A DNA stretch of 64,000 nucleotides from Nitrospiraceae bacterium (GTDB lineage: Bacteria; Nitrospirota; Nitrospiria; Nitrospirales; Nitrospiraceae). Shown one piece after another: positions 6,603 through 35,781 of the stretch. The translations under genes and the position numbers were made by a program. The DNA is taken from contig CAKKRE010000054.1 of NCBI GenBank assembly GCA_919902505.1, positions 1 through 64,000 of the forward strand, given 5' to 3'. The first letter of the stretch is position 1. Each line of letters begins with the position of its first letter. Under the pieces are notes generated by a model that saw only the letters and a program-made list of their open reading frames with translations, was not told where the DNA came from and ran no database searches.

Positions 6603-8021
6603 ATGCAGGAGGATGTATCTGGAGAACCGCGTGGACCTCGAACCGATCTGTGTATCGCCGTGCGGCGCGGAGCGGTTCCGTCCGGTTACGCGCTTCGCGC
6701 ATCGACCACAGCCATCTGCCTGCTGCTGACCCTGCTGCTCTTCTGTCGGGTGGCGCAGGACGTGACGGCTCAACCACCGACCGATCACTCAACAGCTCCG
6801 GCTATCCATCCCGTCACGCTTCGTTTCGTCTCCTGGAAGCCCGATCACCCGCGGGTGTGGGACGAGGCCCTCGCCGAGTTCACCAAAACCCATCCTCATA
6901 TTTCGGTGGTGCGCGAACTCGCCCCGCACAGCTCCACCGCCTATCACGATCTCTTGACGCAAAAACTGAAGAATCGCGATGCCACGGTCGATGTCTTTTT
7001 CATGGATGTGATCTGGGTGCCGGAGTTTGCCGAAGCCGGTTGGGCTCGTCCGCTCGACGAGCGATTTACTCCGGCCATGCGTGAGGAGTTTCTGCCGGCC
7101 ACCATCGAGGTCACACGATATTCAGACCATCTTTACGGCATCCCGAGTCGTATCGATGCAGGCCTGCTCTACTATCGCTCGGATTTACTGACCAAATACG
7201 GCTTCTCACTACCGGCAACCTGGGACGAACTGGCCCGGCAGGCCGAGACGATTGTCGCCGGGGAACGATCGACTAACCCGACCCTGCGCGGCTACACGGC
7301 ACAATTCAAACAGTACGAAGGCCTCGTCTGTAACATGCTGGAGTTCATCGACGGCCACGGCGGGAGCCTGCTGACCGCGGATGGAACACATTCCACTCTG
7401 GCCCGACCCGAAACGCTGGCCGCCGTGCAGTTCGTGCGTGATCGGGTGATCGGCGGGCTCGCTTCACGCGCCGCGCTCACCTATCAAGAACCGGAATCCC
7501 TCTCCGTCTTTCTCCAAGGACACGCGGTCTTTCACCGGAACTGGCCCTATGCCTGGGAACTGGCCAACAACCGGACTCGCTCGACCGTCGCCGGGCAGGT
7601 CGCCGTGATGCCCCTTCCCGGATTCACTCCGGGGCGCACGGCCGCCGCACTCGGCGGCTGGCTCTACGGCATTAGCGCCTACTCGCAGCATCCAGACGAG
7701 GCCTGGGCGCTCATCGAGTTTCTCTCCAGCCAGGCCATGCAAAAGAAGTTCGCACAGGAGGCCGGGATCGCGCCCTCCCGTCAGGCGCTGTTTGCCGATC
7801 CCGAGCTGCTGACGGCAGCGCCGCAACTGCGCAACCACTTCGCCGTCCTTCAGTCTGCGACGGCTCGCCCGCGCTCACCCGTGTATCCCGCCATCTCGCA
7901 TCTACTGCAACGGTATTTCAGCCGCGCCCTCGCCATCGACGACCTCGACCTCGCGCGGGAAGCGGCCGTGACCGACGCCCACATCGATCGACTGCTCGCC
8001 CTCACAAGGATTGCGCCATGA
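6603..8021 (+). CDS. ABC transporter sugar-binding protein (family 1, MalE/ThuE-like)
   Basis: Periplasmic solute-binding subunit of a CUT1-type carbohydrate importer, about 472 residues from ATG 6603. A hydrophobic export segment (ICLLLTLLLFCRVAQDVTA) sits about 35-55 residues in, so the true start may be later, for instance GTG 6660. Neither start has a convincing ribosome site. The mature part begins with VTLRFVSWKPDHPRVWDEAL and shows family features: DVFFMDVIWVPEFAEAGWARPLD, GIPSRIDAGLLYYRSDLL and YGFSLPATWDEL. The stop overlaps the next start by 4 bases, so it is translationally coupled to the permeases. The substrate (trehalose, maltose or another oligosaccharide) cannot be told from sequence. 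Confidence 0.85.
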   Translation: MQEDVSGEPRGPRTDLCIAVRRGAVPSGYALRASTTAICLLLTLLLFCRVAQDVTAQPPTDHSTAPAIHPVTLRFVSWKPDHPRVWDEALAEFTKTHPHISVVRELAPHSSTAYHDLLTQKLKNRDATVDVFFMDVIWVPEFAEAGWARPLDERFTPAMREEFLPATIEVTRYSDHLYGIPSRIDAGLLYYRSDLLTKYGFSLPATWDELARQAETIVAGERSTNPTLRGYTAQFKQYEGLVCNMLEFIDGHGGSLLTADGTHSTLARPETLAAVQFVRDRVIGGLASRAALTYQEPESLSVFLQGHAVFHRNWPYAWELANNRTRSTVAGQVAVMPLPGFTPGRTAAALGGWLYGISAYSQHPDEAWALIEFLSSQAMQKKFAQEAGIAPSRQALFADPELLTAAPQLRNHFAVLQSATARPRSPVYPAISHLLQRYFSRALAIDDLDLAREAAVTDAHIDRLLALTRIAP

Positions 8022-8929
8022 TCGCCCCCTTACAAGCCACACGGCATCGCGACAGCCTCGCAGCCTGGACCATGGTGGCTCCGGCGCTGCTCGTGACCAT
8101 GGTCTTCGCACTGTACCCCGTGTTGGATTCGCTCTGGCTCAGCCTGCACAATATCTTCATCGGGCTGCCGCAACTCGGCAGTCCATTCGTCGGCCTGGAC
8201 AATTATGTGGCGCTGATCCGCGATCCGGTGGCGCAGCAGGCGCTGGTCGTCACCCTCGCCTTTGTCGTCCTCTCGACACTGCTGGAGTTGGCCTGCGGGC
8301 TGATCATTGCCCTGGTGATTCATGAGCGGTTTCGCGGACGCGGTCTCGTGCGGGCGGCCATCCTGATTCCCTGGGCCATTCCCACGGTCGTCGCGTCGCA
8401 ACTGTGGCGCTATATCTTCAACGACCAATACGGGTTCGCAAACTTATTGTTGTTCGGCGAACGCGTCACCGACTACGTCCCCTGGCTGGCCTATCCGGGC
8501 ATGGCTTTCTGCATCGTGGTGCTGGCCGACGTCTGGAAGACCTCGTCTTTTGCGGCGTTATTGATCCTGGCCGGCCTCCAGGTCATCCCCGACGATCTCT
8601 ACGACGCGGCGCGTGTGGATGGCGCCACCGTCTGGCAGCGGTTTTGGCACATCACCCTTCCGCTGCTGAAGCCCGCGCTGTTGCTCGCTTTATTATTTCG
8701 TACCATGGATGCGTTTCGCGTCTTCGATCTGGTGTTCGTGATGACCCAAGGCGGCCCTGGCGACGCCACGCAGGTGCTGCAGTTCTATGGCTACCAAACC
8801 CTGTTCACGGAGGGCCGCATCGGGTATGGCTCTGCCGTCTCCGTGGCCGTCTTCCTGATGATCCTGGCGCTGTCGTTGACGTATCTCCGCGCCATCGGGT
8901 CGAGCCTTTTGGAGCGCAGACGAACATGA
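8018..8929 (+). CDS. ABC sugar transporter inner-membrane permease, MalF/UgpA type
   Basis: First transmembrane subunit of the importer, 303 residues with about six membrane spans. The N-terminal span (APALLVTMVFALYPVLDSLW) is followed by the periplasmic segment usual for MalF-type permeases. The EAA loop that docks the ATPase is visible as DDLYDAARVDGATVWQRFWH, followed by ITLPLL. It overlaps the binding-protein gene and the next permease gene by 4 bases each. The length is typical for UgpA/ThuF proteins rather than the longer enteric MalF. Confidence 0.9.
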   Translation: MIAPLQATRHRDSLAAWTMVAPALLVTMVFALYPVLDSLWLSLHNIFIGLPQLGSPFVGLDNYVALIRDPVAQQALVVTLAFVVLSTLLELACGLIIALVIHERFRGRGLVRAAILIPWAIPTVVASQLWRYIFNDQYGFANLLLFGERVTDYVPWLAYPGMAFCIVVLADVWKTSSFAALLILAGLQVIPDDLYDAARVDGATVWQRFWHITLPLLKPALLLALLFRTMDAFRVFDLVFVMTQGGPGDATQVLQFYGYQTLFTEGRIGYGSAVSVAVFLMILALSLTYLRAIGSSLLERRRT

Positions 8930-17904: not shown

Positions 17905-18012
17905 CACCAGCTGCCACCTGGATAGTCCGAGTCCGGGCAGCATGGTGAAAAATTTAACCGATTCTTGATTCGCCGTTTCGCGCGGCTGAGATACACTGCC
18001 GACCCACTAGTT

Positions 18013-20163
18013 ATGTCATCAGTTATGTCATCGCCGCAGACACCTTCAGAGACTCAGCCCCACGCATCGACGCCGAAGACGAGGGCTCACCGGCCGGCCA
18101 CGAGTGACCTCTCCCGGCCGGAATGGTACCTGAACCGCGAGCTCAGCCTCCTGGAATTCAACCGGCGCGTCCTCGATCTGGCGAAAGATCAGAAGGTTCC
18201 ACTGCTGGAACGGTTGAAGTTTCTCTGCATCGTGAGTTCCAATCTCGACGAGTTCTTCGAAGTCCGCGTGGCGGGACTCAAGGAACAGGTGACTCATGGA
18301 GTCGAACAACGGGGCGCCGACGGACTGACCCCGTCGGAACTCCTGGCCCGCATCGCCGCGCTGACTCACCAGCTGGTGCATGAGCAATACGTCGTCCTGA
18401 ATCAATCCCTCATCCCTCAGCTGGCCGACCAACGTATCCGTTTTCTCAAACGCGCCGATTGGATGCCGTCGCACATTCGGTGGATGCGCCGGTTTTTTTC
18501 CCGCGAATTGCTCCCGCTCCTGAGTCCGGTAGGCCTGGATCCCGCGCATCCCTTTCCCAAACTACTCAACAAGAGTCTCAACTTTCTGGTGACGCTGGAG
18601 GGAACCGATGCCTTCGGTCGCCCCAACGGAACTGCCATCGTGCAGGTCCCACGCTCGCTTCCGCGCGTGATTCATCTGCCGGTGCGCAATGCGGCCTGGC
18701 CCCACGATTTTGCATTTTTGTCGTCGGTGATCCATGCCTTTGTCCATCAACTCTTCCCCGGCATGCACGTCACCGGCTGCTACCAATTCCGTGTCACGCG
18801 GAACAGCAATCTTTTCGTGGACGAGGAAGACGTCGACGACCTCCGGCGGGCGCTCGAAGGTCAGCTTCCCGAACGGCGATTCGGCGACGAAGTGCGGCTT
18901 GAAGTGGCGGACAACTGCCCGCCCGACCTGGTCTATTTTCTGCGGGAACAGTTTCATCTGGATGCGCGCGACGTGTATCAGTGCCACGGACCGGTCAATC
19001 TGCATCGACTGATGGCCGTGCCCGACCTGGCGGATCGGCCCGATCTAAAATTTCAGCCCTTCACCCCCGGCATTCCCACGACGCCTGTGCCGAGCGAAGA
19101 CTGGTTCGACGCCATCAGGCAAGGCGACATCCTCCTGCATCATCCCTATCAGTCCTTCGCGCCCGTCACCGAGTTTCTACGGCAGGCGGCCACGGACCCG
19201 CACGTCCTCACCATCAAGCAAACCCTGTATCGCACAGGGGCGGATTCAGCCATCGTGCAATCCCTGGTGGATGCGGCGCGAGGCGGAAAAGAAGTGACCG
19301 TGGTGATCGAGCTACGGGCCCGTTTCGACGAAGAGGCCAACATCGAGCTGGCGCACGATTTAGAGGAGGCAGGCGCCCATGTGGTGTACGGCGTGGTCGG
19401 ACACAAAACCCACGCAAAAATGAGTCTGGTCCTCCGGCGGGAAGGCCGACTGCTGCGGAGCTATACGCACCTCGGAACCGGCAACTATCACGCCCGCAAT
19501 GCGCGGCTCTATACCGATTTTGGATTGCTCACCTGCGATGCGGCGATCGGGCGGGACGTCCGGACGGTCTTTCAGCAACTGACTTCCCTGGGACGACCGG
19601 GACGGCTCAAACATCTGCTCCAATCGCCCTTTACCTTGCATGCCACATTGCTGAAATGGATCGGCCGTGAAACCGACAGGGCCAAGCAGGGCCGACCAGC
19701 CCACATCATCGCGAAGATGAATGCGCTCCTGGAGCCTCACATCATCCGGGCCCTCTACAAGGCCTCTCAGGCCGGGGTGAAAATCGACTTGATCGTCCGG
19801 GGTCCCTGCGCCTTACGACCCGGCATCGCGGGCCTCTCGGAACATATCCGCGTACGTTCGATCATCGGACGGTTTCTCGAACATAGCCGGATCTTCTATT
19901 TTCTGAACGACGGCGACGACCGGGTCTTTCTCTCCAGCGCCGATTGGATGGATCGCAATTTCTTTCGGCGCATCGAAGTGGCCTTTCCTGTGCTGGATAA
20001 AACATTACGTCAGCGCGTGATCGACGAGGGTCTCCGCCCCTACCTCGAAGACAATACCCACGCCTGGATTCTCCATCGAGACGGCACCTACCGGCGTCAG
20101 ACGCCCGGACGCAGGGCCGCTCGTTCAGCCCAGCAGTGGCTGATGAATAGACTGGTTACCTAA
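18013..20163 (+). CDS. ppk: Polyphosphate kinase 1
   Basis: Reversibly transfers the ATP gamma-phosphate onto polyphosphate. About 716 residues from ATG 18013; ATG 18025 is equally possible, and an in-frame TTG at 17965 is unlikely. Domains in order: N-terminal helical domain (YLNRELSLLEFNRRVLDLA), head domain (FLVTLEGTDAFGRPNG), and two phospholipase-D-like catalytic domains. The autophosphorylated histidine lies in THLGTGNYHARNARLYTDFG, and a second conserved histidine in GRFLEHSRIFYFLNDGDD. The basic N-terminal extension is poorly conserved. A weak promoter-like pair (TTGATT, GATACA) lies at about 17965-17995. Confidence 0.96.
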   Translation: MSSVMSSPQTPSETQPHASTPKTRAHRPATSDLSRPEWYLNRELSLLEFNRRVLDLAKDQKVPLLERLKFLCIVSSNLDEFFEVRVAGLKEQVTHGVEQRGADGLTPSELLARIAALTHQLVHEQYVVLNQSLIPQLADQRIRFLKRADWMPSHIRWMRRFFSRELLPLLSPVGLDPAHPFPKLLNKSLNFLVTLEGTDAFGRPNGTAIVQVPRSLPRVIHLPVRNAAWPHDFAFLSSVIHAFVHQLFPGMHVTGCYQFRVTRNSNLFVDEEDVDDLRRALEGQLPERRFGDEVRLEVADNCPPDLVYFLREQFHLDARDVYQCHGPVNLHRLMAVPDLADRPDLKFQPFTPGIPTTPVPSEDWFDAIRQGDILLHHPYQSFAPVTEFLRQAATDPHVLTIKQTLYRTGADSAIVQSLVDAARGGKEVTVVIELRARFDEEANIELAHDLEEAGAHVVYGVVGHKTHAKMSLVLRREGRLLRSYTHLGTGNYHARNARLYTDFGLLTCDAAIGRDVRTVFQQLTSLGRPGRLKHLLQSPFTLHATLLKWIGRETDRAKQGRPAHIIAKMNALLEPHIIRALYKASQAGVKIDLIVRGPCALRPGIAGLSEHIRVRSIIGRFLEHSRIFYFLNDGDDRVFLSSADWMDRNFFRRIEVAFPVLDKTLRQRVIDEGLRPYLEDNTHAWILHRDGTYRRQTPGRRAARSAQQWLMNRLVT

Positions 20164-20277
20164 CTCCGCTGCAGGCGCACGCGCTCGTCACTATTAACCC
20201 CTCCTTAACCGGTCGCTTACCCGGTTGTCACGTCAGCCCTCTATGCTGTGGGCACGACAACGAGGAGGGGTAGCACC

Positions 20278-20709
20278 ATGAGTGTCGCGCAGGTCATCCG
20301 ACTCCATCCACGCCACCAGACTTTTGCGTCGTTACGCACACATCTGCTTCGAAGCCGCCGCATGCTCTTAGCACAGGTCGTGTCCCGGCCTCTGCCCCAA
20401 TCAGAACAGGGTCTCCCTGCAGATGTCCTCGATCTGGCCGCTTGCGAACAGAGACGGCTGATCGACGACCTCATGGCGCAACGAGCCTACGCGAAACTCC
20501 GGCAAATAGAGCGTGCACTCAATCGCATGCTCGACACCTCATACGGCATCTGCCATCGCTGCCGAACGGATATCCCCCTGCCGAGACTACGCGCACAACC
20601 CGATGCGACGCTTTGTCTCACCTGCCAGCACCTTTCTGAAGAACGGGCTTCGACGCGGCGTGCGGCATGGAGGCCCGACACCCCGGCAGAAGAAGTCTAC
20701 CGATCCTGA
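20278..20709 (+). CDS. DksA/TraR-type zinc-finger protein
   Basis: A 143-residue protein with a C-terminal C4 zinc finger, CHRCRTDIPLPRLRAQPDA followed by TLCLTCQ (CxxC-x17-CxxC), as in DksA/TraR proteins that bind RNA polymerase through its secondary channel. The helical part (LAACEQRRLIDDLMAQRAYAKL) precedes it. The coiled-coil tip acidic pair of true DksA is not obvious, so regulatory activity is uncertain. ATG 20278 follows a strong GAGGAGGGG site; an upstream in-frame start at 20248 overlaps that site and is rejected. It is expressed apart from ppk, with about 115 bases between. Confidence 0.8.
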   Translation: MSVAQVIRLHPRHQTFASLRTHLLRSRRMLLAQVVSRPLPQSEQGLPADVLDLAACEQRRLIDDLMAQRAYAKLRQIERALNRMLDTSYGICHRCRTDIPLPRLRAQPDATLCLTCQHLSEERASTRRAAWRPDTPAEEVYRS

Positions 20710-24415: not shown

Positions 24416-26431
24416 TTACCGTTTCTCGGAGGCGTGATCGACGTGAGGGGCAAGCTTCGCAATCCCGGAAGTGTCGTAAGGCAGGACGCTGAACACCTTG
24501 GCGACATCGATAGCCGGCTTCCCGGGACGCAGGATTTTCTGCGCGAGCGTCGCCAGCCAGGAGAGGGGAACCAACACAAACCTCGGTAGCCAGACCACCG
24601 TGAGATCGGGGTTGGCTTGCCGGAGACGATCCAACAGTTCCTGCTTGGTCGGGGAAACAGGATCGAGGAGGTTCAAGGGGCTCGGCACGTTGTCCCACGC
24701 GTCCGTCATCCAGCCAAGGAAGCGGCCGGCAAATCCGACATCTACCACCCCCAGACGATCGCCCGGCGAACCGACAGCCACGAAGATATTCCCCAACCGC
24801 TTACCAAGACGGCCCGGCGGGTCGAAATCGCGATAGTCGACCAATGCGCCGGGACGAATCACTTTCACAGAGAGACCGAGTTCCTTGCCGAGTTGGACCG
24901 CCAACCGTTCGGATTCCAACTTTCCCCAGACATAGGGACCGGACCCCTTGCTGTCCGGCTCAAGCGGATGGTCGTCGCCGATGGACCGGCCGTTGCCCTG
25001 CGCCAATACGGCAAGACTGCTGACATGGACGAAATGCGTAATCCCCGCCGCATCGGCCCCGCGAACCATCTGCTCGGTGGCGTCCAGCGAGTTCCGCTGA
25101 TGCTCCGGCCAACCACCGGCGGTTTCTGCCGCAGCATGAATGACGGTATCCACCCCCTTGAAGAGCTGTGCAGCGGCTCCCGTGGCCACATCGGCCACCA
25201 CATATTCGGCGCCGGCAATCCGCTCCCAGGGGGACGGCTCACGTCGCGCCACCACACGAACAGGGCGGCCACGCGACAGCAGCGTTCGCACGATTTCTTT
25301 TCCCAAAAACCCGGTTCCACCGGTAACCAGCACGCCCCGGCTCTCGACCGGCTTCGGCGCGGCGGCAGCCAGGGCCTTAGCCTCTCCCACCTTGAGCGCC
25401 TTCGCCACGCGCTCACAGATGCGCACCGTCTCCAGCAAACTCTCCGGCGACAAGGGCGACGGACCGCCCGTCCGCGCAGACTCATAGAACGCGGTGAAGA
25501 GTTCGGCCAGCCCAGGATAACTGCGCTGACTTTTCAGAAAGCGGTTCGCCATCGCGGACGTCGTACCGATCAGCAATTGCCAGGCTTGCCGGTAGGGCGC
25601 GAATAACTTATCGATGCCGGACGACCCGGGACCGATGGCGCGCTGAGTGGTACTGCGAACATAGTCGGCGAACAACGACCCGTTCTTCCCGACGACCCGC
25701 AGATAACTCTCCACCGGGCGCCCTTCGAGCGTCACGATCAACGTGCCGGTCACACCGCCGCGTCGCACCAGCGCATGCACCGTCCCGGCCTGACTCACTT
25801 CCAAGGACAGCAGCTCGGTACGCCCCTCCCCGGCTTGCTCCAACACCTGGAGCAACAGATACACCGGGTGCGGCAGGATGTCGAGTAACTGGTGGTCGGC
25901 GCGGAGCACCTTGCGGCCACCCGGCGCATGACGCACGGTCCGGAAGGAAAAGTAGCTCTCGACATGCACGACGCGCCCAATCGACGGCAAGTACTGGGTC
26001 AATACCCGCGTGGGTGGTTCATATAACAATTGATGGCCGGCACAGACACGGAGACCCTTTGCGCTCGCCTCATCCAGGATCTGTTGGGCGTCCTCCACCG
26101 ACTCGGTGAAGGGCTTCTCGACATAGATGTGGCATCCGGCCTTGATCGCCATCCTGGCCAACGGAGCATGGGAGGCCGGCGGAGTAATGATGTGCACCAC
26201 ATTGAGACGTTCGGAGGCAAACAGCTCCTCCGGCGTCTTGAAACAGCCGATGCCCGGAACAATATCGCGCATCGCCTCTTGAGCCGCATCGGACGGGTCA
26301 GCCACCGCCACCAGTTGCACGCCGGGGCAGCGCAAAATGGCGCGGGCATGGTGCTGGGCATGGCGGCCTGCACCGATGAGCGCGATCCGTAACGGACGCG
26401 AGTCTGGAGTTGTCAGAGTAGAGTTGGCCAC
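24416..26431 (-). CDS. Fused Gfo/Idh/MocA oxidoreductase and NAD-dependent epimerase/dehydratase
   Basis: A 671-residue two-enzyme fusion with a GTG start at 26431 behind AGGAC. Residues 14-350 form a Gfo/Idh/MocA dehydrogenase: Rossmann motif ALIGAGRHAQHHARAIL, substrate-site EKP in CHIYVEKPFTESVEDA, then the alpha/beta C-terminal domain. Residues 368-660 form an extended SDR: GVLVTGGTGFLGKEIV, VDTVIHAAAETAG, FVHVSSLAVLAQG and the active-site Tyr/Lys in GPYVWGKLESERLA. The pair could act in sequence on a nucleotide sugar or a sterol-like substrate. The domain calls are firm; the substrate is unknown. It sits next to a sensor pair and not far from the polysaccharide locus. Confidence 0.82.
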   Translation of the reverse strand: MANSTLTTPDSRPLRIALIGAGRHAQHHARAILRCPGVQLVAVADPSDAAQEAMRDIVPGIGCFKTPEELFASERLNVVHIITPPASHAPLARMAIKAGCHIYVEKPFTESVEDAQQILDEASAKGLRVCAGHQLLYEPPTRVLTQYLPSIGRVVHVESYFSFRTVRHAPGGRKVLRADHQLLDILPHPVYLLLQVLEQAGEGRTELLSLEVSQAGTVHALVRRGGVTGTLIVTLEGRPVESYLRVVGKNGSLFADYVRSTTQRAIGPGSSGIDKLFAPYRQAWQLLIGTTSAMANRFLKSQRSYPGLAELFTAFYESARTGGPSPLSPESLLETVRICERVAKALKVGEAKALAAAAPKPVESRGVLVTGGTGFLGKEIVRTLLSRGRPVRVVARREPSPWERIAGAEYVVADVATGAAAQLFKGVDTVIHAAAETAGGWPEHQRNSLDATEQMVRGADAAGITHFVHVSSLAVLAQGNGRSIGDDHPLEPDSKGSGPYVWGKLESERLAVQLGKELGLSVKVIRPGALVDYRDFDPPGRLGKRLGNIFVAVGSPGDRLGVVDVGFAGRFLGWMTDAWDNVPSPLNLLDPVSPTKQELLDRLRQANPDLTVVWLPRFVLVPLSWLATLAQKILRPGKPAIDVAKVFSVLPYDTSGIAKLAPHVDHASEKR

Positions 26432-26577: not shown

Positions 26578-27564
26578 CTACTTATGCCTGCCGTCGCAGG
26601 GAAAACAGTGATCCATACATTCCGGACAGAGCCCGCCGTTGAACTGGATCGCCGATCGCTCCGCGATAAACGTGGCCAGGTCGTACCACTCGCCGGATTC
26701 GTCCGGCACGCGCTTGCACCAGGAACACAAATTGATAATGCCCTGCGGACGTCCGAGCCGCGCATCCATCGTCCAGAAGCCCTCACGCTGTTCGCCCTGG
26801 ACCTGAAGCCCCTGTCCGCTTGAGGCGATCTCATGGAATACAAGCACGGCGCCGAGCACGGTGCCGCCGTCGTCGACCACCGGCGCCACACTTCCTCGAA
26901 TCGTCCGGCCCGCACCCAGCCTGGAGATGAGGGTCGCGCCGTCGATCGTCACCATGCAGACCTGTGCCATCGCCTGCTGAGCCGGACTTTCCGATTGTGG
27001 CACCGCTTCGGAGCCCAGGAGAGCGCTCACAGTCATCCCCGTCGCTTCCTCCTGACTCCAACCCGTGAACTCCTCTGCGGCAGGATTCATATACGTGACC
27101 CGGCCGCCACGATCAGTCGTCACAATGCCGTCACCGATACAGCGCACCGTGGTGGCGATCCAGCGTAATCGCTCCCGCATGTGGCGGTCATGCTGCGCGC
27201 GATGCAGCGCCAGCTCAATCGTGGTCCGGAGTTCGTTCGCTTGATAGGGCTTGAGCATATAACCGGCCGGAGACGTCACCTTCGCGCGCTCCAGCGTGTG
27301 GTTGTCGGCATAGGCCGTGAGATAGATCACCGGCACGTCCTGCTGACGTTGAATCTGGAGAGCGGTTTCCACCCCATCCATGTTCCCCTTCAACACGATA
27401 TCCATCAGAATCAGATCGGGATGCATGTCGACGGCCTTGCGGATCGCCTCTTCGCCCGAGGTGGCTGTGGCCGGCACGCGATACCCCAGCCGTTGCAGAT
27501 TGAGTTGAATGTCTTTCGCGACGACAGGCTCATCTTCCACAATCAAGATGCTGGCTGGTTCCAT
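26578..27564 (-). CDS. Response regulator: receiver, PAS and C-terminal four-cysteine domain
   Basis: A 328-residue output protein of a two-component pair. REC domain 1-125: SILIVEDEPVVAKDIQLNLQ, phospho-acceptor Asp in PDLILMDIVLKG, Thr in VIYLTAYAD, Lys in GYMLKPYQ. PAS domain about 130-255 (IGDGIVTTDRGGRVTYMNPA). The C-terminal 60 residues hold CSWCKRVPDESGEWYDL...GLCPECMDHCF, a CxxC...CxxC arrangement that suggests metal binding. There is no DNA-binding domain. ATG 27564 lies 5 bases behind the kinase stop, and its AAAGGA site is inside the kinase's last codons, so the two are coupled. The longer upstream frame is a shadow of the kinase. Confidence 0.85.
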   Translation of the reverse strand: MEPASILIVEDEPVVAKDIQLNLQRLGYRVPATATSGEEAIRKAVDMHPDLILMDIVLKGNMDGVETALQIQRQQDVPVIYLTAYADNHTLERAKVTSPAGYMLKPYQANELRTTIELALHRAQHDRHMRERLRWIATTVRCIGDGIVTTDRGGRVTYMNPAAEEFTGWSQEEATGMTVSALLGSEAVPQSESPAQQAMAQVCMVTIDGATLISRLGAGRTIRGSVAPVVDDGGTVLGAVLVFHEIASSGQGLQVQGEQREGFWTMDARLGRPQGIINLCSWCKRVPDESGEWYDLATFIAERSAIQFNGGLCPECMDHCFPCDGRHK

Positions 27565-27569
27565 GGCAT

Positions 27570-29438
27570 TCACATCCTTTCTGAATATTGCAGTTGCTGA
27601 AAGCGAATCTGCCATTCCGTGCCCGCTCCACTCCGGAGTTCCGTGCTGCCGTCCAGCTTCTCTGCCAGCAGCGTCACAAGTTCCAGCCCCAGTGAATCGG
27701 GATTGTTCAGCACGCCGTCTTTGGGAATCCCGATGCCGTTGTCGCTCACGCACAGGGTAAACGTGCCGTCGACATGATCGAGCAGATCGATGTGCACCGT
27801 TCCACTGTTGTCGTCGATAAACGCGTGCTTCAAACAATTGGAGACCAGCTCATCGATGATCAATCCGCAGGTCAGCCCCGTGTCGATATCGAACTCGACA
27901 TCGTCCACGTTCAGCTCCAGCGAAATGAGGTTCGGATCGACCCCATACGAACGGAACAGGTGGCCGGTCAGGGTGCGGATATAGTCGCCCATTTTGATTC
28001 GCGAAAGATCGTGCGACCGGTGCAACGTCTCGTGAAGCAGCGCGATCGAGGTGATACGCACCTGACATTCTCGGAACAGCTGGTTGACGACCGGGTCCTT
28101 GATGGAAGCCGACTGCAAATTCAGCAGGCTGGAAATGACCTGCAGGTTGTTCTTGACCCGATGGTGCACTTCCCGCAGCAGACTTTCTTTTTCCTTCAAC
28201 ATCCGGCGGAGCTGGTCTTCCATGTCCTTGCGCTCGGTCAGGTCCATGCAGGTACCGATGTACCCGCCGAACTGCCCCTCCTCGTCGAACAAGGGCACTC
28301 CCGTATCCATGATCCACCGGTACTCGCCGTCGTGACGCCGCAGCCGGTATTCCAGAAAGAACGGCTGCTCCGACTTGAACGCCTCCAGATACGACTTCCG
28401 GCAGCGATCCAGATCGTCGGCGTGAATGCCTGTAAACCAGTTGTCGCCGATCTCTTCCTGCACGGTGCGCCCGGTAAATTCCAGCCAGCGTTTATTGATG
28501 AAGGTGATGTGTGTGTCCGGCCCGGCCATCCACACCATCACCGGAGCCGTGTCCGCCATCATACGAAACCGGGCTTCGCTTTCCCGCAGCGCCGCTTCGA
28601 TGCGCCGCTTCACCGTGACATCGCGCGCGATGGCCGACGCGCCCATGACACAGCCGTCCGCATCCTTCACCGGCGAGATCGTCAACGACACATCGATGCG
28701 CTCCCCCTGCTTCCGCCGCTGCACCATTTCCACATTGCGCACATGCTCTCCGCGCGCAATCCGATCGAGCATGGTCGGCACTTCATCCAATCGGTTCGGG
28801 GGACACAGCACAGAGATGGGCCGGCCGAGTACCTCCTCGGCGCGATACCCGTAGACCCGTTCCGCGCCCCGATTCCAGCTTTGAATCATGCCGTTCAACG
28901 TCATGCCCACAATGGCGTCGTCGGATGATTTGACGATCGCGACCAGTTCTGACACCGCTTCCGCTCGCAGCACTTCAAGTTCCTGATTGGCGGCGGCCAG
29001 ATCCGCCGTCCGCTCCTGGACCTGCTGCTCGATATCTTCATTGATGCGCAGCAATTCGGCCTCGTCGCGTTGCCGGCGCAGACACAACAGCGCCGTCACC
29101 CAGATCACCATCAGCGCAAAGGCCCGATTCATGGCGCTGACCCAGGTCAATGCAAAGAGCGGCCGATCGAACATATCGAGAATTGTCACCAGGGACGCGA
29201 GGGCAGCCACCCAGAACGTGAGACGGGGGTGAGGGATCCGGGAAGCGATGAGAACCGGCACTACGTAGAGCGTGGTGATGGTCAATCCCAAGGGCAACCA
29301 CCAATCGATCGCGCCGATCGCCGCGATCAACGCCAGGGCCACTCCCAACCGGGAGTAGCTGCTGCGCGACATGCCGAGAAAGAATGATGCAGGGATTGTC
29401 ATACGTACAACGACGCGGCGTCTCCCTTTATCATCCAT
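27570..29438 (-). CDS. Membrane PAS-domain histidine kinase (HisKA_2 type)
   Basis: Sensor kinase of about 622 residues. The start is uncertain (29438, 29402 or 29372). Several membrane spans lie in residues 15-120 (LGVALALIAAIGAIDWWLPL and after), then a coiled coil (EDIEQQVQERTADLAAANQE). Two PAS/PAC units follow at about 165-290 and 295-415 (DDAIVGMTLNGMIQSWNRGA; APVMVWMAGPDTHITFINKR). The phospho-acceptor motif EVHHRVKNNLQVISSLLNLQ is of the HisKA_2/HWE class, and a GHKL ATPase domain has DELVSNCLKHAF and VSDNGIGIP. It is encoded directly upstream of its regulator. The input signal is unknown. Confidence 0.88.
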   Translation of the reverse strand: MDDKGRRRVVVRMTIPASFFLGMSRSSYSRLGVALALIAAIGAIDWWLPLGLTITTLYVVPVLIASRIPHPRLTFWVAALASLVTILDMFDRPLFALTWVSAMNRAFALMVIWVTALLCLRRQRDEAELLRINEDIEQQVQERTADLAAANQELEVLRAEAVSELVAIVKSSDDAIVGMTLNGMIQSWNRGAERVYGYRAEEVLGRPISVLCPPNRLDEVPTMLDRIARGEHVRNVEMVQRRKQGERIDVSLTISPVKDADGCVMGASAIARDVTVKRRIEAALRESEARFRMMADTAPVMVWMAGPDTHITFINKRWLEFTGRTVQEEIGDNWFTGIHADDLDRCRKSYLEAFKSEQPFFLEYRLRRHDGEYRWIMDTGVPLFDEEGQFGGYIGTCMDLTERKDMEDQLRRMLKEKESLLREVHHRVKNNLQVISSLLNLQSASIKDPVVNQLFRECQVRITSIALLHETLHRSHDLSRIKMGDYIRTLTGHLFRSYGVDPNLISLELNVDDVEFDIDTGLTCGLIIDELVSNCLKHAFIDDNSGTVHIDLLDHVDGTFTLCVSDNGIGIPKDGVLNNPDSLGLELVTLLAEKLDGSTELRSGAGTEWQIRFQQLQYSERM

Positions 29439-29892
29439 ATGAGCAAACCCTATGCCTCCGGCGCCACATCTATCCGCCAATCGCACAGGAAAACAGACCT
29501 GAGTCGGCAATCACGATCTGGTGATAGGCGGCCAAGCCTTGACCGGTGCCGCCTGCCAGGATTGCCCAGACCGCAACCGGTTCTCATATTGAGCCCATCG
29601 TTGGCGTCGCAGGAATTCCATTCAGCGCAAACCCATGCCCCACAGCGGCCCCTGGTGTACGTCACCGCCTCACCGTTGTTCAGACTTGAACGCCAGGCTA
29701 CGGGACTGCTTGTCGTCGATTCGACGACCGGAAGGGAGGCACACATGCGGTCGGTCAAGCCGGAGGAGGCGCCGGCGGCGGCCGCGTCACAACGGGCAAC
29801 AGGCACCGGCAGTCACAGCGCGACACGCCAAGAGGCGCTGCTGCTCCGGCGGACGACGGTGAAACTGTCGGCTATCAGGATGTGGGGATGAA
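29439..29892. other. Gene-free stretch upstream of the histidine kinase
   Basis: No recognisable gene. A 48-codon plus-strand frame (29745-29891) follows a good GGGAGG site but has biased, low-complexity content and no recognisable features, so I do not call it. The kinase promoter should lie here; I see no clear consensus. Confidence 0.35.
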
Positions 29893-29938: not shown

Positions 29939-31057
29939 TTAGCGTTTGCGGTAGAACGAGGCGATCGTCTGCACGACGTATTGAAGTTGTTCGTCGGACA
30001 GTTCCGCGTAGATGGGAAGCGAGAGCACTTCTTCGGCCGCACGTTCCGATTGCGGGAACGCGCCTTTCTGATACCCCAGATCACGATAACAATTTTGCAA
30101 ATGCAGGGGCAGGGGGTAATAGACCTCTGAGCCCACGCCCTGGTCTTTCAGATAACTCCGCAACTCGTCACGCTTGTGGACACGAATCGTGAATTGATTG
30201 AAGACGTGAAAGTTGTGAGCCCCCACCGCAGGCAAGGTGATCCGGTCTGTCAGTTTCGCCTCCGTGAATAACCGCACATACCGCGCGGCATTCCGGCGAC
30301 GGCCTTCCGCCCACTCATCCAGACGTTTCAGCTTCACCAACAAGACCGCCGCTTGCAACGCATCCAACCGGCTGTTGATGCCGATCGCTTCGTGCACATA
30401 GCGCACCCGGCTCCCATGAACCCGCAACATCGCGATGGACTCCGCCAGCGCCTTGTCGTTGGTGGTCACCATGCCGGCGTCCCCGAACCCTCCGAGGTTC
30501 TTTGACGGGAAAAAACTGAAGCAGGCCACATCGCCCAACACACCGGCATATCGTCCGTTCTGACGGGCACCGATGGCCTGGCAGGCATCCTCGATCACGC
30601 CGATGTTGTGTCGCCGGGCGATCTCGTTGATCGCATCCATCTCGGCGCATTGACCGAAGAGATGCACGGGAATGATCGCCTTGGTTCGTGTGGTGATGGC
30701 GCGTTCCAATAGTGCCGGATCCATATTGAAATCATCCGGGCGAATATCGATGAACACCGGCTTGGCCCCCAGCCTGGAGATCGCCCCCGCCGTCGCAAAG
30801 AAGGTAAACGGCACGGTGACCACTTCATCGCCGGCTTTCACCCCCAAGGCCATGAGCGCCAGCAGCAGCGCGTCGCTACCGGAGGCGACTCCGACGCCAT
30901 GGGCACTACCGGTATACGACGCCACCGCCTGCTCCAACGCTACCACTCGCGGGCCGAGAATAAAGCCCTGCTCATCACAGGTGGCCTCAATCGCGGCCAG
31001 GATTTCACTGCGCATCGATTGATATTGGGCTTTGAGATCAAGCAGCGGAATGTTCAT
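29939..31057 (-). CDS. DegT/DnrJ/EryC1-family sugar aminotransferase
   Basis: PLP-dependent enzyme that typically transfers an amino group to a nucleotide-linked keto-sugar, 372 residues. Key features: substrate-loop start [59 protein letters not shown] (PLP-binding Asp) and the Schiff-base lysine in [24 protein letters not shown] sits ahead of ATG 31057. It is the last gene of the glycan locus and suggests that the polymer contains an amino sugar. No matching nucleotide-sugar dehydratase lies in the locus, so the keto-sugar must come from elsewhere. Confidence 0.93.
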
Positions 31058-31078
31058 CGTATCCCCCGATTTCCCCTT

Positions 31079-32278
31079 CTATAGTCGATTGGGTTGCAAC
31101 TTCATGACATCTTCATTTTGACGCGCGGCATGCAGGAGATACGTATAGAGCGACTGATACTGTTTGAGCGTCTCTTGAATCGTGAACTCCTCCGGAAGTT
31201 CCTGCGTACCGGTCCGGAGGTCGACGCGAAAGCGCTCGTCTTCTAAAATCTGACAGACCCGCTCAGCCATGGCCCGCACGTCGCCGGCCGGACAGAGCGT
31301 GCCTTGAATGCCCTCAACAATTGCCTCGGCAGCGCCGCCCACTCGCGTGGCCACGATCGGAATCCGGCTGGCTCTGGCCTCCAGGATGGCGCAGGGCAAC
31401 CCTTCCCATTGCGAGGTCAGCACGAACACATCGAATGCTTTCAATAAGGCGGCCACATCGCGGCGCCAGCCGAGCAGAGTCACCCGATCCTGCAGCCCTT
31501 GCGCCAGCAACAACGCTTCGATGTGGGGCCGCAGCTCTCCGTCGCCGACGAGCACACAGCGGGCGGCTGGAACGCGTCGACACACGAGCGCTGCAACGCG
31601 GACAAAGTCTTCGGGAGATTTTTGCGGTTTCAAGCACGAGACCGTTCCTACCAGCAGCTGATCAGGGCCCACTCCCAGCAGAGCCCGAAGACGGTCACGT
31701 TCGGAAGACTCGATTCGAGCCGCAAACGCCGTCGGATCGATTCCCGGCCTCACCACCGACACCTTGGATACGGTAAAGAGGCCCCACTCGATGCCCTGCC
31801 TGCGGTCGGCGTGTGACACCGCAATCCAGTGGGTGGTGATCCGGCCCACCATCCATTCCAGTGCGATCAATGCTTGTTGTTGCCAGAACGGCTGCGCGGG
31901 CGTCACGCCGTACCCGTGTATCGTGTGCAGGATGCAGGGGACACCGGCGAGCCAGGCGGCTAACCGCCCTAGGATACCAGCTTTTGAACTGTGGGTGTGC
32001 ACAATCTTTGGCCGGAGTCGTCGAAAGGCGCCGACCAGCTCCCACAACGCGCACAGGTCTTGGAAGGGACGAATCTCTCGCGCGAGCGACGGGATGGTGT
32101 GAACCTCGACACCTTCCAACGCATGCGCGTCGTCGGTCCTCAGCCCTCCTGGCCCTGCGAGGAGCACGGGACGAAACCGGCTGCGATCCAGGCCCGACAC
32201 GACTTGCATCGCCACTTCCTGTGCGCCGCCCAACTCCAGTTTCGTAATGACGTGACAGACTACATGCATGACATTCAC
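31079..32278 (-). CDS. Glycosyltransferase family 4
   Basis: A 399-residue GT-B transferase for polysaccharide assembly on the cytoplasmic face. The N-terminal domain has the glycine-rich acceptor loop (CHVITKLELGGAQEVAMQVV) and IVHTHSSKAGILGRLAA. The C-terminal domain has VGTVSCLKPQKSPEDFVRVA, LVGDGELRPHIEAL and the EX7E-type donor site in SQWEGLPCAILEARASRIPI. The start is GTG 32278 or ATG 32269, just behind the flavoprotein gene stop. Donor and linkage cannot be predicted. Confidence 0.9.
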   Translation of the reverse strand: MNVMHVVCHVITKLELGGAQEVAMQVVSGLDRSRFRPVLLAGPGGLRTDDAHALEGVEVHTIPSLAREIRPFQDLCALWELVGAFRRLRPKIVHTHSSKAGILGRLAAWLAGVPCILHTIHGYGVTPAQPFWQQQALIALEWMVGRITTHWIAVSHADRRQGIEWGLFTVSKVSVVRPGIDPTAFAARIESSERDRLRALLGVGPDQLLVGTVSCLKPQKSPEDFVRVAALVCRRVPAARCVLVGDGELRPHIEALLLAQGLQDRVTLLGWRRDVAALLKAFDVFVLTSQWEGLPCAILEARASRIPIVATRVGGAAEAIVEGIQGTLCPAGDVRAMAERVCQILEDERFRVDLRTGTQELPEEFTIQETLKQYQSLYTYLLHAARQNEDVMKLQPNRL

Positions 32279-32282
32279 GCGC

Positions 32283-33593
32283 TCAGGCCGCGGCCTTCAT
32301 CCGTAACCGCGCAGCCGCCTGTTGCCCCTGGGCGATCGCATCCTCCATCGACGTGTGCTCCCACATTCCATACCGCCCGATCGACGAGATGCCGCGTCGC
32401 TCCAACTCGGCCAGCAGCTCCTGCACGGCTGGACTACGATACCGGTCGAACAGCACATAGGCGTAATAGAGATCCTTCACATCCGACATCACGAGTTCAT
32501 CGGTCCGCTGGAGCACGCCGGCCTGCTCCAACCCCCGACGGACTCGCTCGATGAGCGCCGCATCGGATTCTCGTTCGGCCGGCTGGTGCGAGATTTCCAC
32601 ATAGAGGGAACTGCAGCCGGGTTGCCCCATCGACGGAGAAAAATTCATGGGAAACCCCGCGCGATAAAACGGATAGCGGTGCTCGGGAAAATAGATCCAA
32701 TGTTTGTCGGAGATGCGCTCGCGCGCGACGGCCAGATTCACGTTATACACAGAGACCCACCGCAGCGACGCAGCCAATTCCCGCAGCGACGCCGGGAGAT
32801 CCACACAACGCCGCACCAGATCAGGCAGGGGGATCGTCGAGACGATCCGGTCATAGGCTTCCGTCCGTTCGCCCTGCGCGCTGCGAAAGACCGCTCGCCG
32901 CCTGCCTGTCTCGATTTCCACCAACTCCGAATCGTACGACAGGTTCTCAACCGACGGGAGAAAGGCTTCCGGCAACACCTTAATGCCGCCGCTGGCAGGA
33001 TACTGAAACGACGGGTTGTAGCCGAAGGCTTTGTCCTTGATTCCCAAGGCACCGTTGACGACATCCTTCACGTCCGGCTTCGGCACCAGCCACGACACCC
33101 AGTCGGACGTGAGTTCTTCCAGCGGCACCTGCCACAACTTTTCGTTGAAGGGCACCATGAAATGTTTCGCAATGCCCTCGCCCAGGCTCTCGACGATCCA
33201 TTGCTTGAACGACCGGCTCTCCACCAGAGGCTTGGACGACGGATTCGACAGCGTCGCGATAAACCCCAGCAGACATTCCCGCACCACTTCCGGCGGGAGA
33301 CCATGCGTGTTCACCTGAAACGGATATTCGGTGTAGGTGTCATGGGAATAGACGTAGGATTTTCGGGCATGCCGCTGAAGTCGGTCCGGCAGCAGGCTCT
33401 CGACGAGCGCCTTGATCGCCGTCTGCCGGAAGTGAAGCAGGTGTCCCGTATAGTCGAAGGTGAACCCGTCTTTTACGTACGAACGGCAGAGCCCTCCGAC
33501 CTCGCGTTCCCGCTCCAGAATCTTGTAGGGCATCCCACGCAGGTGATAGGCCGCGCTGAGCCCAGCCAATCCAGCCCCGACGATCAAAATCAT
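32283..33593 (-). CDS. FAD-dependent UDP-galactopyranose-mutase/amine-oxidase-like protein
   Basis: Flavoprotein of 436 residues with an N-terminal dinucleotide fold (MILIVGAGLAGLSAAYHLRG, then EREREVGGLCRSY) and a mutase-like segment (GFTFDYTGHLLHFRQ). FNEKLWQVPLEELTSDWVS resembles the FNxKxW region of UDP-galactopyranose mutases and protoporphyrinogen-oxidase-like relatives in glycan loci. True UGM active-site arginines were not verified, so a sugar ring-contraction role is only one option. ATG 33593 overlaps the preceding stop by 4 bases. The longer open frame upstream is a shadow of the WecA-like gene. Confidence 0.75.
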   Translation of the reverse strand: MILIVGAGLAGLSAAYHLRGMPYKILEREREVGGLCRSYVKDGFTFDYTGHLLHFRQTAIKALVESLLPDRLQRHARKSYVYSHDTYTEYPFQVNTHGLPPEVVRECLLGFIATLSNPSSKPLVESRSFKQWIVESLGEGIAKHFMVPFNEKLWQVPLEELTSDWVSWLVPKPDVKDVVNGALGIKDKAFGYNPSFQYPASGGIKVLPEAFLPSVENLSYDSELVEIETGRRRAVFRSAQGERTEAYDRIVSTIPLPDLVRRCVDLPASLRELAASLRWVSVYNVNLAVARERISDKHWIYFPEHRYPFYRAGFPMNFSPSMGQPGCSSLYVEISHQPAERESDAALIERVRRGLEQAGVLQRTDELVMSDVKDLYYAYVLFDRYRSPAVQELLAELERRGISSIGRYGMWEHTSMEDAIAQGQQAAARLRMKAAA

Positions 33594-34648
33594 ACTACGC
33601 CGGTCCTTTCTGTCGAACGTGCCGGGGCCGCTTCGGCGATCACGGCAACGGTTCCGGTCGAGACATTCACACGCGTCAAGGCCACGGCGGCCACGGCCAG
33701 GCCCAACACCGTAACACCGCTCAGCACCACGGCAAGATCCTGGGGCACGGCCATGACCAGCAGCCCGATTCCCCCCAATAACGCCGCACCGAGATAACTG
33801 AGCAGGACGACTTGCGTCACCGACAGGCCCCAATGCCGCAAACGAATCGCAAGATGATCGGGACTGCCGAGAAACACCGGCAACCCGCGCAGGAATCGGA
33901 TGTACATCACGAACAGGGTATCGAAAATGGGCATGCCTAAGATCAACACCGGGGTCAGCAGCGAGACGGAATGGCCGGTCGTGTATTTGCCGATCATCGA
34001 CAGGGCGCCCAGCATCAGACCGATGAACATCGCGCCGGAATCGCCCATATAAATCGAAGCCGGTCGCCAGTTGTATCGCAGGAAGCCGAGCAGGCTCCCC
34101 ATGAGCGCCGCCAGCATGAACGCGATGGTCTGATCCCCGTTCAAGATCGCCACCACACAGAGAAAGGCGGCGCTGATCACACCGACACCGGCCGACAACC
34201 CGTCCATGATGTCCAACAGATTGAAGGCATTGATGATGCCGACCATCCAGAACACCGTCAGCACGATATCGACCCAATCAGGCAGCGACGCGATTTCGAT
34301 GCGAATGCCGCTCTTGATCAACACGAACACGGCCAGAAACTGGCCCGCGAGTTTGGTTCCCGGCGACAAGACGCCGAAATCGTCGATCAGCCCCAGCATG
34401 ACGATCAGTGTCCCGGAGAGCACGATGCCGAGCACGTCCTGCCGGAACTCGAAGGTAAAGGCCAAGCTCACGAGAAACGCGAGATAGATGGCCAGCCCAC
34501 CCAGATAGGGCACCGGCTCACGCTGATGCTTCAGCCGGCCATCCGGATTATCGACGATGCCGAATTTTAAGGCGGCGCGACGCGCAATCGGCACGCCATA
34601 GAGCGAAAGGAGCATCGCGACCACGAATGTCAGGGTGAGCAGAATCAT
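33590..34648 (-). CDS. Undecaprenyl-phosphate sugar-1-phosphate transferase (MraY/WecA family)
   Basis: Polytopic membrane enzyme of 352 residues that starts glycan synthesis by moving a sugar-1-phosphate (commonly GlcNAc-1-P) onto undecaprenyl phosphate. Family signatures: REPVPYLGGLAIYLAF, LIDDFGVLSPGTKLAGQ (catalytic DD), NAFNLLDIMDGLSAGVG and YMGDSGAMFIGLMLGA, with about ten spans. ATG 34648 overlaps the upstream gene's stop by 4 bases, and AGGAAG lies upstream. The C-terminal 40 residues form an extra span and tail. It makes this locus self-sufficient for chain initiation. Confidence 0.92.
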   Translation of the reverse strand: MILLTLTFVVAMLLSLYGVPIARRAALKFGIVDNPDGRLKHQREPVPYLGGLAIYLAFLVSLAFTFEFRQDVLGIVLSGTLIVMLGLIDDFGVLSPGTKLAGQFLAVFVLIKSGIRIEIASLPDWVDIVLTVFWMVGIINAFNLLDIMDGLSAGVGVISAAFLCVVAILNGDQTIAFMLAALMGSLLGFLRYNWRPASIYMGDSGAMFIGLMLGALSMIGKYTTGHSVSLLTPVLILGMPIFDTLFVMYIRFLRGLPVFLGSPDHLAIRLRHWGLSVTQVVLLSYLGAALLGGIGLLVMAVPQDLAVVLSGVTVLGLAVAAVALTRVNVSTGTVAVIAEAAPARSTERTGVV

Positions 34649-35781
34649 CGACTTCCTGTGGAACGACTGTGGCCTGACACAGGGCGATGAACCGCCCGGC
34701 TCATCACATTCAAATGCTCGTTCTCCGCGAAGGTCCGATACACGTCCACCAGCCGGGGGCCCCACACAGCCAGAGAGTACCGTTCCTCCACGGTCCGACG
34801 TCCGGCCTGCCCCATTCGCGCGCGCAACTGCGGCTGCCGGCAAAGTGCGTCGAGGCGCTCAAGCCACTCTTGTTCGGTGGCGGCAAGAAACCCGTTCTCT
34901 CCATTCACAATGATGTCGCGATTCACACCGACGGGAGAGGCCACCGAGGGCATCCCCACCGCAAGGTACTGCAGGAGCTTCAAGCCGCACTTGCCCCTGG
35001 CCCACTCCGTGTCCTCAAGCGGCATCACCCCGATCGTGGCATCCTGCAGATCCGCCACTTCGCGTTGAAAATCCCAGGGCCTGAATTCAATCTCGACGCC
35101 CGGCATGTGCGGCGGCCGTGAACAGACCACGCGGAGTGTCAGGCGAAACTTGGATTGCAACGCGCGAAGTGCCGGCGCCAGCACATCCAGACACTTCAGG
35201 TTGTAGGCTAGGCCTATCCATACGATTGTGATGGTATCGGAGTTGCGTTCAGATGAATCGAGGCTCATCGGGTTCGGGACAAATCTCTCGGTATCGACGA
35301 CCGTAGGAACGATGCAGACCCGAGGCGAGAACTGCTTCGCATAGGCGGCAAGCCGGTCGTTCCCGACGATGGCGCCTGTGGCCATTGAGAGGAGCGCGGG
35401 GATCTTCTTCTCATGTCCGGGAGTCAGGTAAATCGCATCATCCATTTCGATCGCCACCCGGTATCGGCACCAGCGCAGCAGCCGTTCGGCCAACGGAGGC
35501 GCATAGGGAAAGAGCTGCCCCTCGATCACGATCAAGTCCTGCCTACCCAGGGTCAACAACGTCCAGAGTCGTCGAAGGAAACAGACGAACACATAGGGAA
35601 TCTTCAACAAGGTCCGTAGCGCCCGCGGGTGCACTTTCAGAATCGAGAAGTAGATCTCTCCAAACAGGGCATCCACACGACAGCCGATCCCAGCCGCTTG
35701 AAAATGAGGCAGGAATTGAAAGACGCGATAGCGACTGCTGGGGCCGATGCTCGAACTCTTCGAGAAATACGTGACCGTCAT
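34645..35781 (-). CDS. Glycosyltransferase family 4-like
   Basis: About 378 residues from ATG 35781, which opens directly into MTVTYFSKSSSIGPSSRYRV, the usual first strand and acceptor loop. A longer frame upstream looks non-coding. The C-terminal half has ITIVWIGLAYNLKCLDVLAP, VGVMPLEDTEWARGKCGLK (in the sequence IGVMPL...) and QYLAVGMPSVASPVGVNRDI, giving a donor-site pattern in which a Lys-rich GKCGLKLLQY replaces the classical EX7E. The divergent donor site is typical of some GT4 proteins in surface-glycan loci. Coupled by 4-base overlap to the WecA-like gene. Confidence 0.85.
   Translation of the reverse strand: MTVTYFSKSSSIGPSSRYRVFQFLPHFQAAGIGCRVDALFGEIYFSILKVHPRALRTLLKIPYVFVCFLRRLWTLLTLGRQDLIVIEGQLFPYAPPLAERLLRWCRYRVAIEMDDAIYLTPGHEKKIPALLSMATGAIVGNDRLAAYAKQFSPRVCIVPTVVDTERFVPNPMSLDSSERNSDTITIVWIGLAYNLKCLDVLAPALRALQSKFRLTLRVVCSRPPHMPGVEIEFRPWDFQREVADLQDATIGVMPLEDTEWARGKCGLKLLQYLAVGMPSVASPVGVNRDIIVNGENGFLAATEQEWLERLDALCRQPQLRARMGQAGRRTVEERYSLAVWGPRLVDVYRTFAENEHLNVMSRAVHRPVSGHSRSTGSR

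Follow-up and report, generated by a model that had tools for sequence, protein, structure and literature searches.

The response regulator encoded at positions 26578..27564 on the minus strand of the window (the whole stretch of 64,000 nucleotides analysed here) ends in a four-cysteine module of about 50 residues, and relatives of this module are found in many bacterial phyla, joined to a variety of sensory domains. The best explanation of the whole is that the module is a zinc-bound, separately evolving output module that docks on a partner protein, and we put the probability of this reading at roughly 0.6. The module family, its wide occurrence, and the range of inputs to which it is joined appear to be undescribed in the sources searched; small output domains with cysteine pairs are, as a kind, already known.

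The regulator consists of 328 residues, and its ATG start is conserved across all of the 19 orthologues aligned. Three parts precede the module, all read from the minus strand: the REC domain (residues 6–116; 27217..27549; Pfam PF00072, E 6e-23), the PAS domain (residues 143–247; 26824..27138; PF00989, E 5e-14, and PF08448, E 7e-12), and a fast-drifting linker (residues about 248–274; 26743..26823) with low identity among the 19 orthologues. The REC match is above the cut-off, and the LMD, LTA, and LKP motifs (phospho-acceptor Asp, conserved Thr and Lys) are present. Beyond REC and PAS, Pfam finds no DNA-binding or enzyme domain in the 328-residue protein, in agreement with what had been claimed by the sequence-only reading. 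The module itself, a predicted zinc site, occupies residues 275–323 (about 26596..26742) in the tail ...GIINLCSWCKRVPDESGEWYDLATFIAERSAIQFNGGLCPECMDHCFPCDGRHK. The tail had been assigned to 26578–26790, a span that corresponds to residues 259–328 and includes the stop codon; the region was correctly located, but the conserved core is narrower (residues about 275–323). Similarly, four to five cysteines had been counted where the tail has six (280, 283, 313, 316, 320, and 323). Only the first four of them (C280, C283, C313, and C316) are family-wide features, and the last one (C323) varies between C, G, H, and R across the 19 orthologues. The four form two CxxC pairs with 29 residues between them, accompanied by a near-invariant Trp.

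Within the genus, the tail is conserved as strongly as the REC domain, while the PAS domain and the linker drift. The mean pairwise identity among the 19 orthologues is 0.947 for REC and 0.937 for the tail, as compared with 0.738 for PAS and 0.464 for the linker (residues 251–273). Moreover, 41 of the 55 tail positions are invariant in these orthologues; the original observation of the tail is therefore real and above chance.

The same features are found far beyond the genus. Conservation was evaluated in 145 copies, which were left from 168 unique rows after copies more than 90% alike and fragments had been dropped. All four cysteines are retained in 142 of these copies, the Trp in 143, and the His before the second pair in 139. 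A basic stretch also follows the first pair (K12 in 142, K or R at position 13 in 135, and R15 in 137 of the 145). The conservation of the first pair is partly built in, because the search pattern used for 80 of the loci fixes the first CxxCK; the second pair (its cysteines are each found in 144 of the 145 copies), the Trp, and the His lie outside this pattern. The three exceptions are L127, a plasmid piece in which the first position, at the end of the piece, is the only one missing, and L096 and L020, which have lost one or two cysteines, L020 being a decaying gene. The spacing between the pairs is 29 in 161 of 167 copies, and otherwise 28 (once), 35 (twice), or 39 (three times).

In a scan of species genomes by pattern and tblastn, at least 580 of at least 585 stretches were confirmed, and the best 80 were kept. 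The record titles of these 80 name Nitrospinae, Deltaproteobacteria, Chloroflexi, Nitrospirae, Poribacteria, Ignavibacteriae, Spirochaetes, Verrucomicrobia, Acidobacteria, Neomarinimicrobiota, Zixiibacteriota, Hydrogenedentota, Bacteroidota, Fermentibacteria, and others. Module matches were found in 36 of 41 genomes, the window's own included, at E up to 1 (weak matches counted), and a profile search of the phylum found the module in 57 of 118 genomes at E 0.001. Each of 18 whole genomes, chosen as carriers, has between 1 and 40 matches. The 40 matches belong to a Ca. Anammoxibacter genome (G163, locus L085), six of them on one contig (C102); this is an unusually large number for a single type of output. 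In the window's own genome, six matches were counted at the loose limit of E up to 1 and four by profile search. Contigs C13 and C29 carry REC-module paralogues, and C70 has a short, divergent one. As for mobile elements, the module has no phage match, and its one plasmid match is a piece flanked by two transposase genes. Two IMG/VR contigs filed as viral (L125 and L126) carry module proteins and may be host DNA. A tree of the 51-column core of the 145 rows (42 with REC) implies that the architecture switched 37 times between having and lacking REC, on an alignment that is too short for a reliable tree. The changes suggest partner swapping of the module between architectures, but the tree was set aside as evidence because of this shortness.

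Similar tails had been recognised on PAS and REC proteins of other bacteria, and both the scans and a survey of domain partners bear this out. When Pfam was run on 98 proteins, the partners among the 25 listed of 56 families were PAS families (up to 35 members), REC (32), HAMP (7), a propeller (Reg_prop; 4), Cache (dCache; 4), 7TM (2), and TPR (2); further inputs joined to the module are GAF and a Tll0287-like domain. The latter occurs in L165 (1526–2590, plus strand), where a Tll0287-like domain with CxxCH and a hydrophobic stretch are followed by the module. A clear contrast was seen for the catalytic outputs. A kinase-like region, GGDEF, or GxGLGL motif was found in none of the ORFs of 173 unique module copies, whereas the other ORFs of the same loci include 45 with a kinase-like region, 28 with GGDEF, and 19 with GxGLGL. 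These three signatures define the outputs covered; about 20 of the 173 copies are near-identical orthologues of the window gene, contig ends truncate some of the ORFs, and five ORFs shorter than 120 aa lay outside the profile scan. Of the complete PAS ORFs, 65 have the module and 17 lack it; signs of a kinase or cyclase were found in none of the former and in 13 of the latter (Fisher p 5e-12, with no correction for relatedness). Since module ORFs carry no such signature, the module takes the place that a kinase or cyclase usually has, and from this arrangement we interpret it as an output (docking) module.

The position of the module in the proteins fits the word tail for most copies: it ends 20 residues or fewer from the ORF end in 152 of 173. 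The word does not hold for all of them, as the module is first or central in seven PAS/GAF-type proteins (L158–L164). These seven, from other genomes of the window's phylum, have PAS-module-GAF-GAF and module-GAF-GAF-like orders, and no catalytic output was seen in them; in L158 and L162, the two to which Pfam was applied, it confirmed PAS and two GAF domains. Two short forms (L033 and L169) possibly stand alone. A membrane segment is predicted before the module in 66 of the 173 copies and REC is found in 66, with both in five. The genes next to the relatives were also surveyed: among 60 immediate same-strand neighbours, REC occurs in 8 and HATPase_c in 7, and each of the non-signalling families among the 25 listed of 90 occurs in at most one, so that no common partner gene emerged from these neighbours.

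The tail was compared with known domains and folds at several levels. A single tail gave only weak matches, with a best E of 0.04 in Pfam, 0.027 in NCBIfam, and 0.7 against PDB sequences; with single tails and alignments taken together, the tail itself never came under E 0.001 in these three sources. Foldseek with the tail model found no match at E ≤ 1e-3, VIA gave no Z ≥ 2 among 72 chains aligned, and for the model of a REC-tail relative the fold-search list was filled by REC matches. In the literature, motif words retrieved nothing, and broader searches showed no recognisable description of the tail by title or abstract opening. The sequence-only reading had held that it would fall if the tail matched a characterised domain or if the cysteines varied; since searches of Pfam, NCBIfam, and the sequences of solved structures gave nothing significant for the tail, and since the cysteines are conserved, it stands on both points.

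Three finger families were considered as possible homologues, and homology was shown for none of them: HHalign gave 0.8–15% for the tail, while ClpX, DksA, and HNH families, as unrelated control pairs among themselves, gave 2–22%. The other controls were 30 column-shuffled profiles with the cysteines kept, and the finger families were taken from the same phylum. The C4 zinc-binding domain of ClpX (PF06689), which serves as a zinc dock for adaptor proteins, resembles the module in having two cysteine pairs, the second of which follows a hydrophobic residue; it differs in its shorter spacing and in sitting on the ClpX AAA+ ATPase, whereas the window protein is REC-PAS. Weak Pfam matches to it occurred in 1 of 35 members (E 0.042) and 1 of 12 (E 0.017), and its HHalign probability was 8%, a value equalled by 3 of 30 controls. 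The four-cysteine finger of DksA/TraR (PF01258), which is linked to a coiled coil, is alike in its cysteine number; when 35 members were searched at E 0.1, 24 families were matched and this one was not among them, and HHalign aligned 11 columns out of register at a probability of 15%, with 3 of 30 controls equally high. HNH (PF01844) was likewise absent from the 35-member Pfam matches at E 0.1 and reached an HHalign probability of 0.8%, with 21 of 30 controls equally high. Separately, the window encodes a DksA/TraR-type zinc-finger protein (20248–20709, plus strand) beside a polyphosphate kinase gene (17965–20163), and its genome has five DksA/TraR family matches.

Two described output domains are closer in kind. 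The archaeal HalOD2 is a REC output domain with two CxxC motifs 20–25 apart and a HalX-like N-terminal part, a predicted zinc finger of unproven function that is confined to a few halobacteria (PMC5847659). The module shares with it a REC-linked output region with two CxxC motifs; it differs in that its pairs lie 29 apart in 161 of 167 copies, outside the HalOD2 spacing, and in its presence in many bacterial phyla. TackOD1 is a cysteine-rich, double-zinc-ribbon-like output domain of several phyla with eleven conserved cysteines (PMC5847659). The module is likewise a cysteine-rich output domain in several phyla, but it conserves four cysteines, not the eleven given there.

Structure prediction is consistent with a small zinc fold. 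AlphaFold2 with the window tail and 85 relatives gave a best model of only moderate confidence, with mean pLDDT 72 (58–72 over five models), with blocks of 81–89 over model residues 31–80. In this model the first pair is followed by a short hairpin, a helix, and then a helix beginning at the second pair; a first pair, a hairpin, and a helix at the second pair form what we take to be the order of a treble-clef zinc finger, and the modelled order is thus treble-clef-like. For a REC-tail relative (15 sequences), the model reached a pLDDT of 89, with 62–90 in the module's own blocks and a single helix (115–159) running into the module. The window copy, as compared with most relatives, is without the long helix and without SHG ahead of the second pair.

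The gene neighbourhood was compared in 25 genomes (24 relatives and the window). Upstream of the regulator, a histidine kinase gene (PAS-PAS-HisKA_2-HATPase by Pfam; 27570..29510, minus strand; start codon uncertain) ends 5 bases ahead of the regulator ATG on the same strand. The next gene downstream, a conserved neighbour, encodes a Gfo/Idh/MocA oxidoreductase fused to an NAD-epimerase (24416..26431, minus strand). Farther upstream, in a conserved neighbourhood (29939..34843, minus strand), lie sugar-polymer genes named from Pfam: a DegT aminotransferase, a glycosyltransferase, a flavin amine-oxidoreductase-type protein, and a glycosyl transferase family 4 protein. An intact regulator is present in 19 of the 25 genomes, and the kinase adjoins it in 18 of the 19; it is cut by the contig end in two of these 18 (L277 and L281), and in the remaining genome (L284) it is hidden by the contig end. 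Neither gene is detectable at the locus in G004, G006, G015, and G024, where the gap between DegT and the oxidoreductase-epimerase gene is about 174–495 bases. No kinase is detectable in G021 or G016, where regulator remnants of 98 and 50 aligned residues, respectively, are left, the former without two of the four conserved cysteines. These two loci (L292 in G021, 7868–8591; L293 in G016, 7692–8125) show joint loss of the pair in progress, with intact neighbours. The flanking sugar-polymer genes are present as far as each contig reaches. The kinase and the regulator are retained or lost jointly, which supports the view that they are a dedicated pair; a role of the pair in the sugar-polymer cluster is suggested by position.

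From these results we infer the following course of events. The four conserved cysteines would bind a single zinc ion within a treble-clef-like fold. A change of state in the receiver, PAS, GAF, or membrane sensor upstream would be relayed along the linker, which in the modelled relative is a long helix, and would reposition or expose the module, which would then dock onto a partner protein. For the window protein, REC would receive its phosphate from the HisKA_2 kinase encoded next to it, PAS would supply a second input, and the target of the module would perhaps be tied to the surrounding sugar-polymer cluster. Among the functions originally proposed, a metal site with a protein dock is still the best reading, and redox output found no specific support.

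An unlikely alternative, though one with some points in its favour, is that the module is a zinc finger binding nucleic acid or RNA polymerase: in a dimerising sensor, a coiled coil would carry two fingers that alter transcription directly. The basic stretch after the first pair would suit this role. In addition, four proteins (L074, L179, L102, and L168) have an extra stretch after the module that looks winged-helix-like by eye, and in L074 and L179 Pfam gave matches below its cut-off (HTH_IclR at E 0.019 and 0.048; AlkZ-like at 1.7e-4); some module copies may therefore serve DNA-binding proteins. However, 66 of 173 copies lie behind at least one predicted membrane segment, which would be an uncommon arrangement for a DNA-binding protein; the family's conserved Arg is replaced by Pro in the window copy; and the profile comparison with DksA/TraR is weak. 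We consider it still less probable that the module is a redox or iron-sulfur switch that senses or relays redox state. The two CxxC pairs, the one relative in which the module is joined to a Tll0287-like domain with a haem-type CxxCH motif, and the many record titles naming groups that are presumably anaerobes point in this direction, but the joint retention of the four cysteines and their order fit a zinc fold, and a redox input would be expected alongside kinase or cyclase outputs, none of which was detected. Finally, the small size of the module and its terminal place in most copies would agree with a structural cap or dimer clamp, the true output being phosphate flow at the REC level (a phosphate sink or relay), but this is very improbable for a tail as conserved as REC in the genus, found with REC in only 66 of 173 copies, and first or central in some proteins.

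The docking output module, if it is one, may have a wider meaning. Many sensors of environmental bacteria carry the module, and so seem to have no output. If the module is a shared output, such orphan regulators would become testable as one class, and one partner, once found, would explain all of them. We tentatively raise the further possibility, which we regard as speculative, that bacteria use the module as a general output channel with a single conserved receiver, on which up to dozens of different sensors and regulators of one cell, all ending in this finger, would converge as GGDEF proteins converge on c-di-GMP; were this true, an unrecognised signalling network would exist in many phyla. 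For the organism studied here, the genus provides a natural experiment: related genomes with and without the kinase-regulator pair in an otherwise unchanged cluster.
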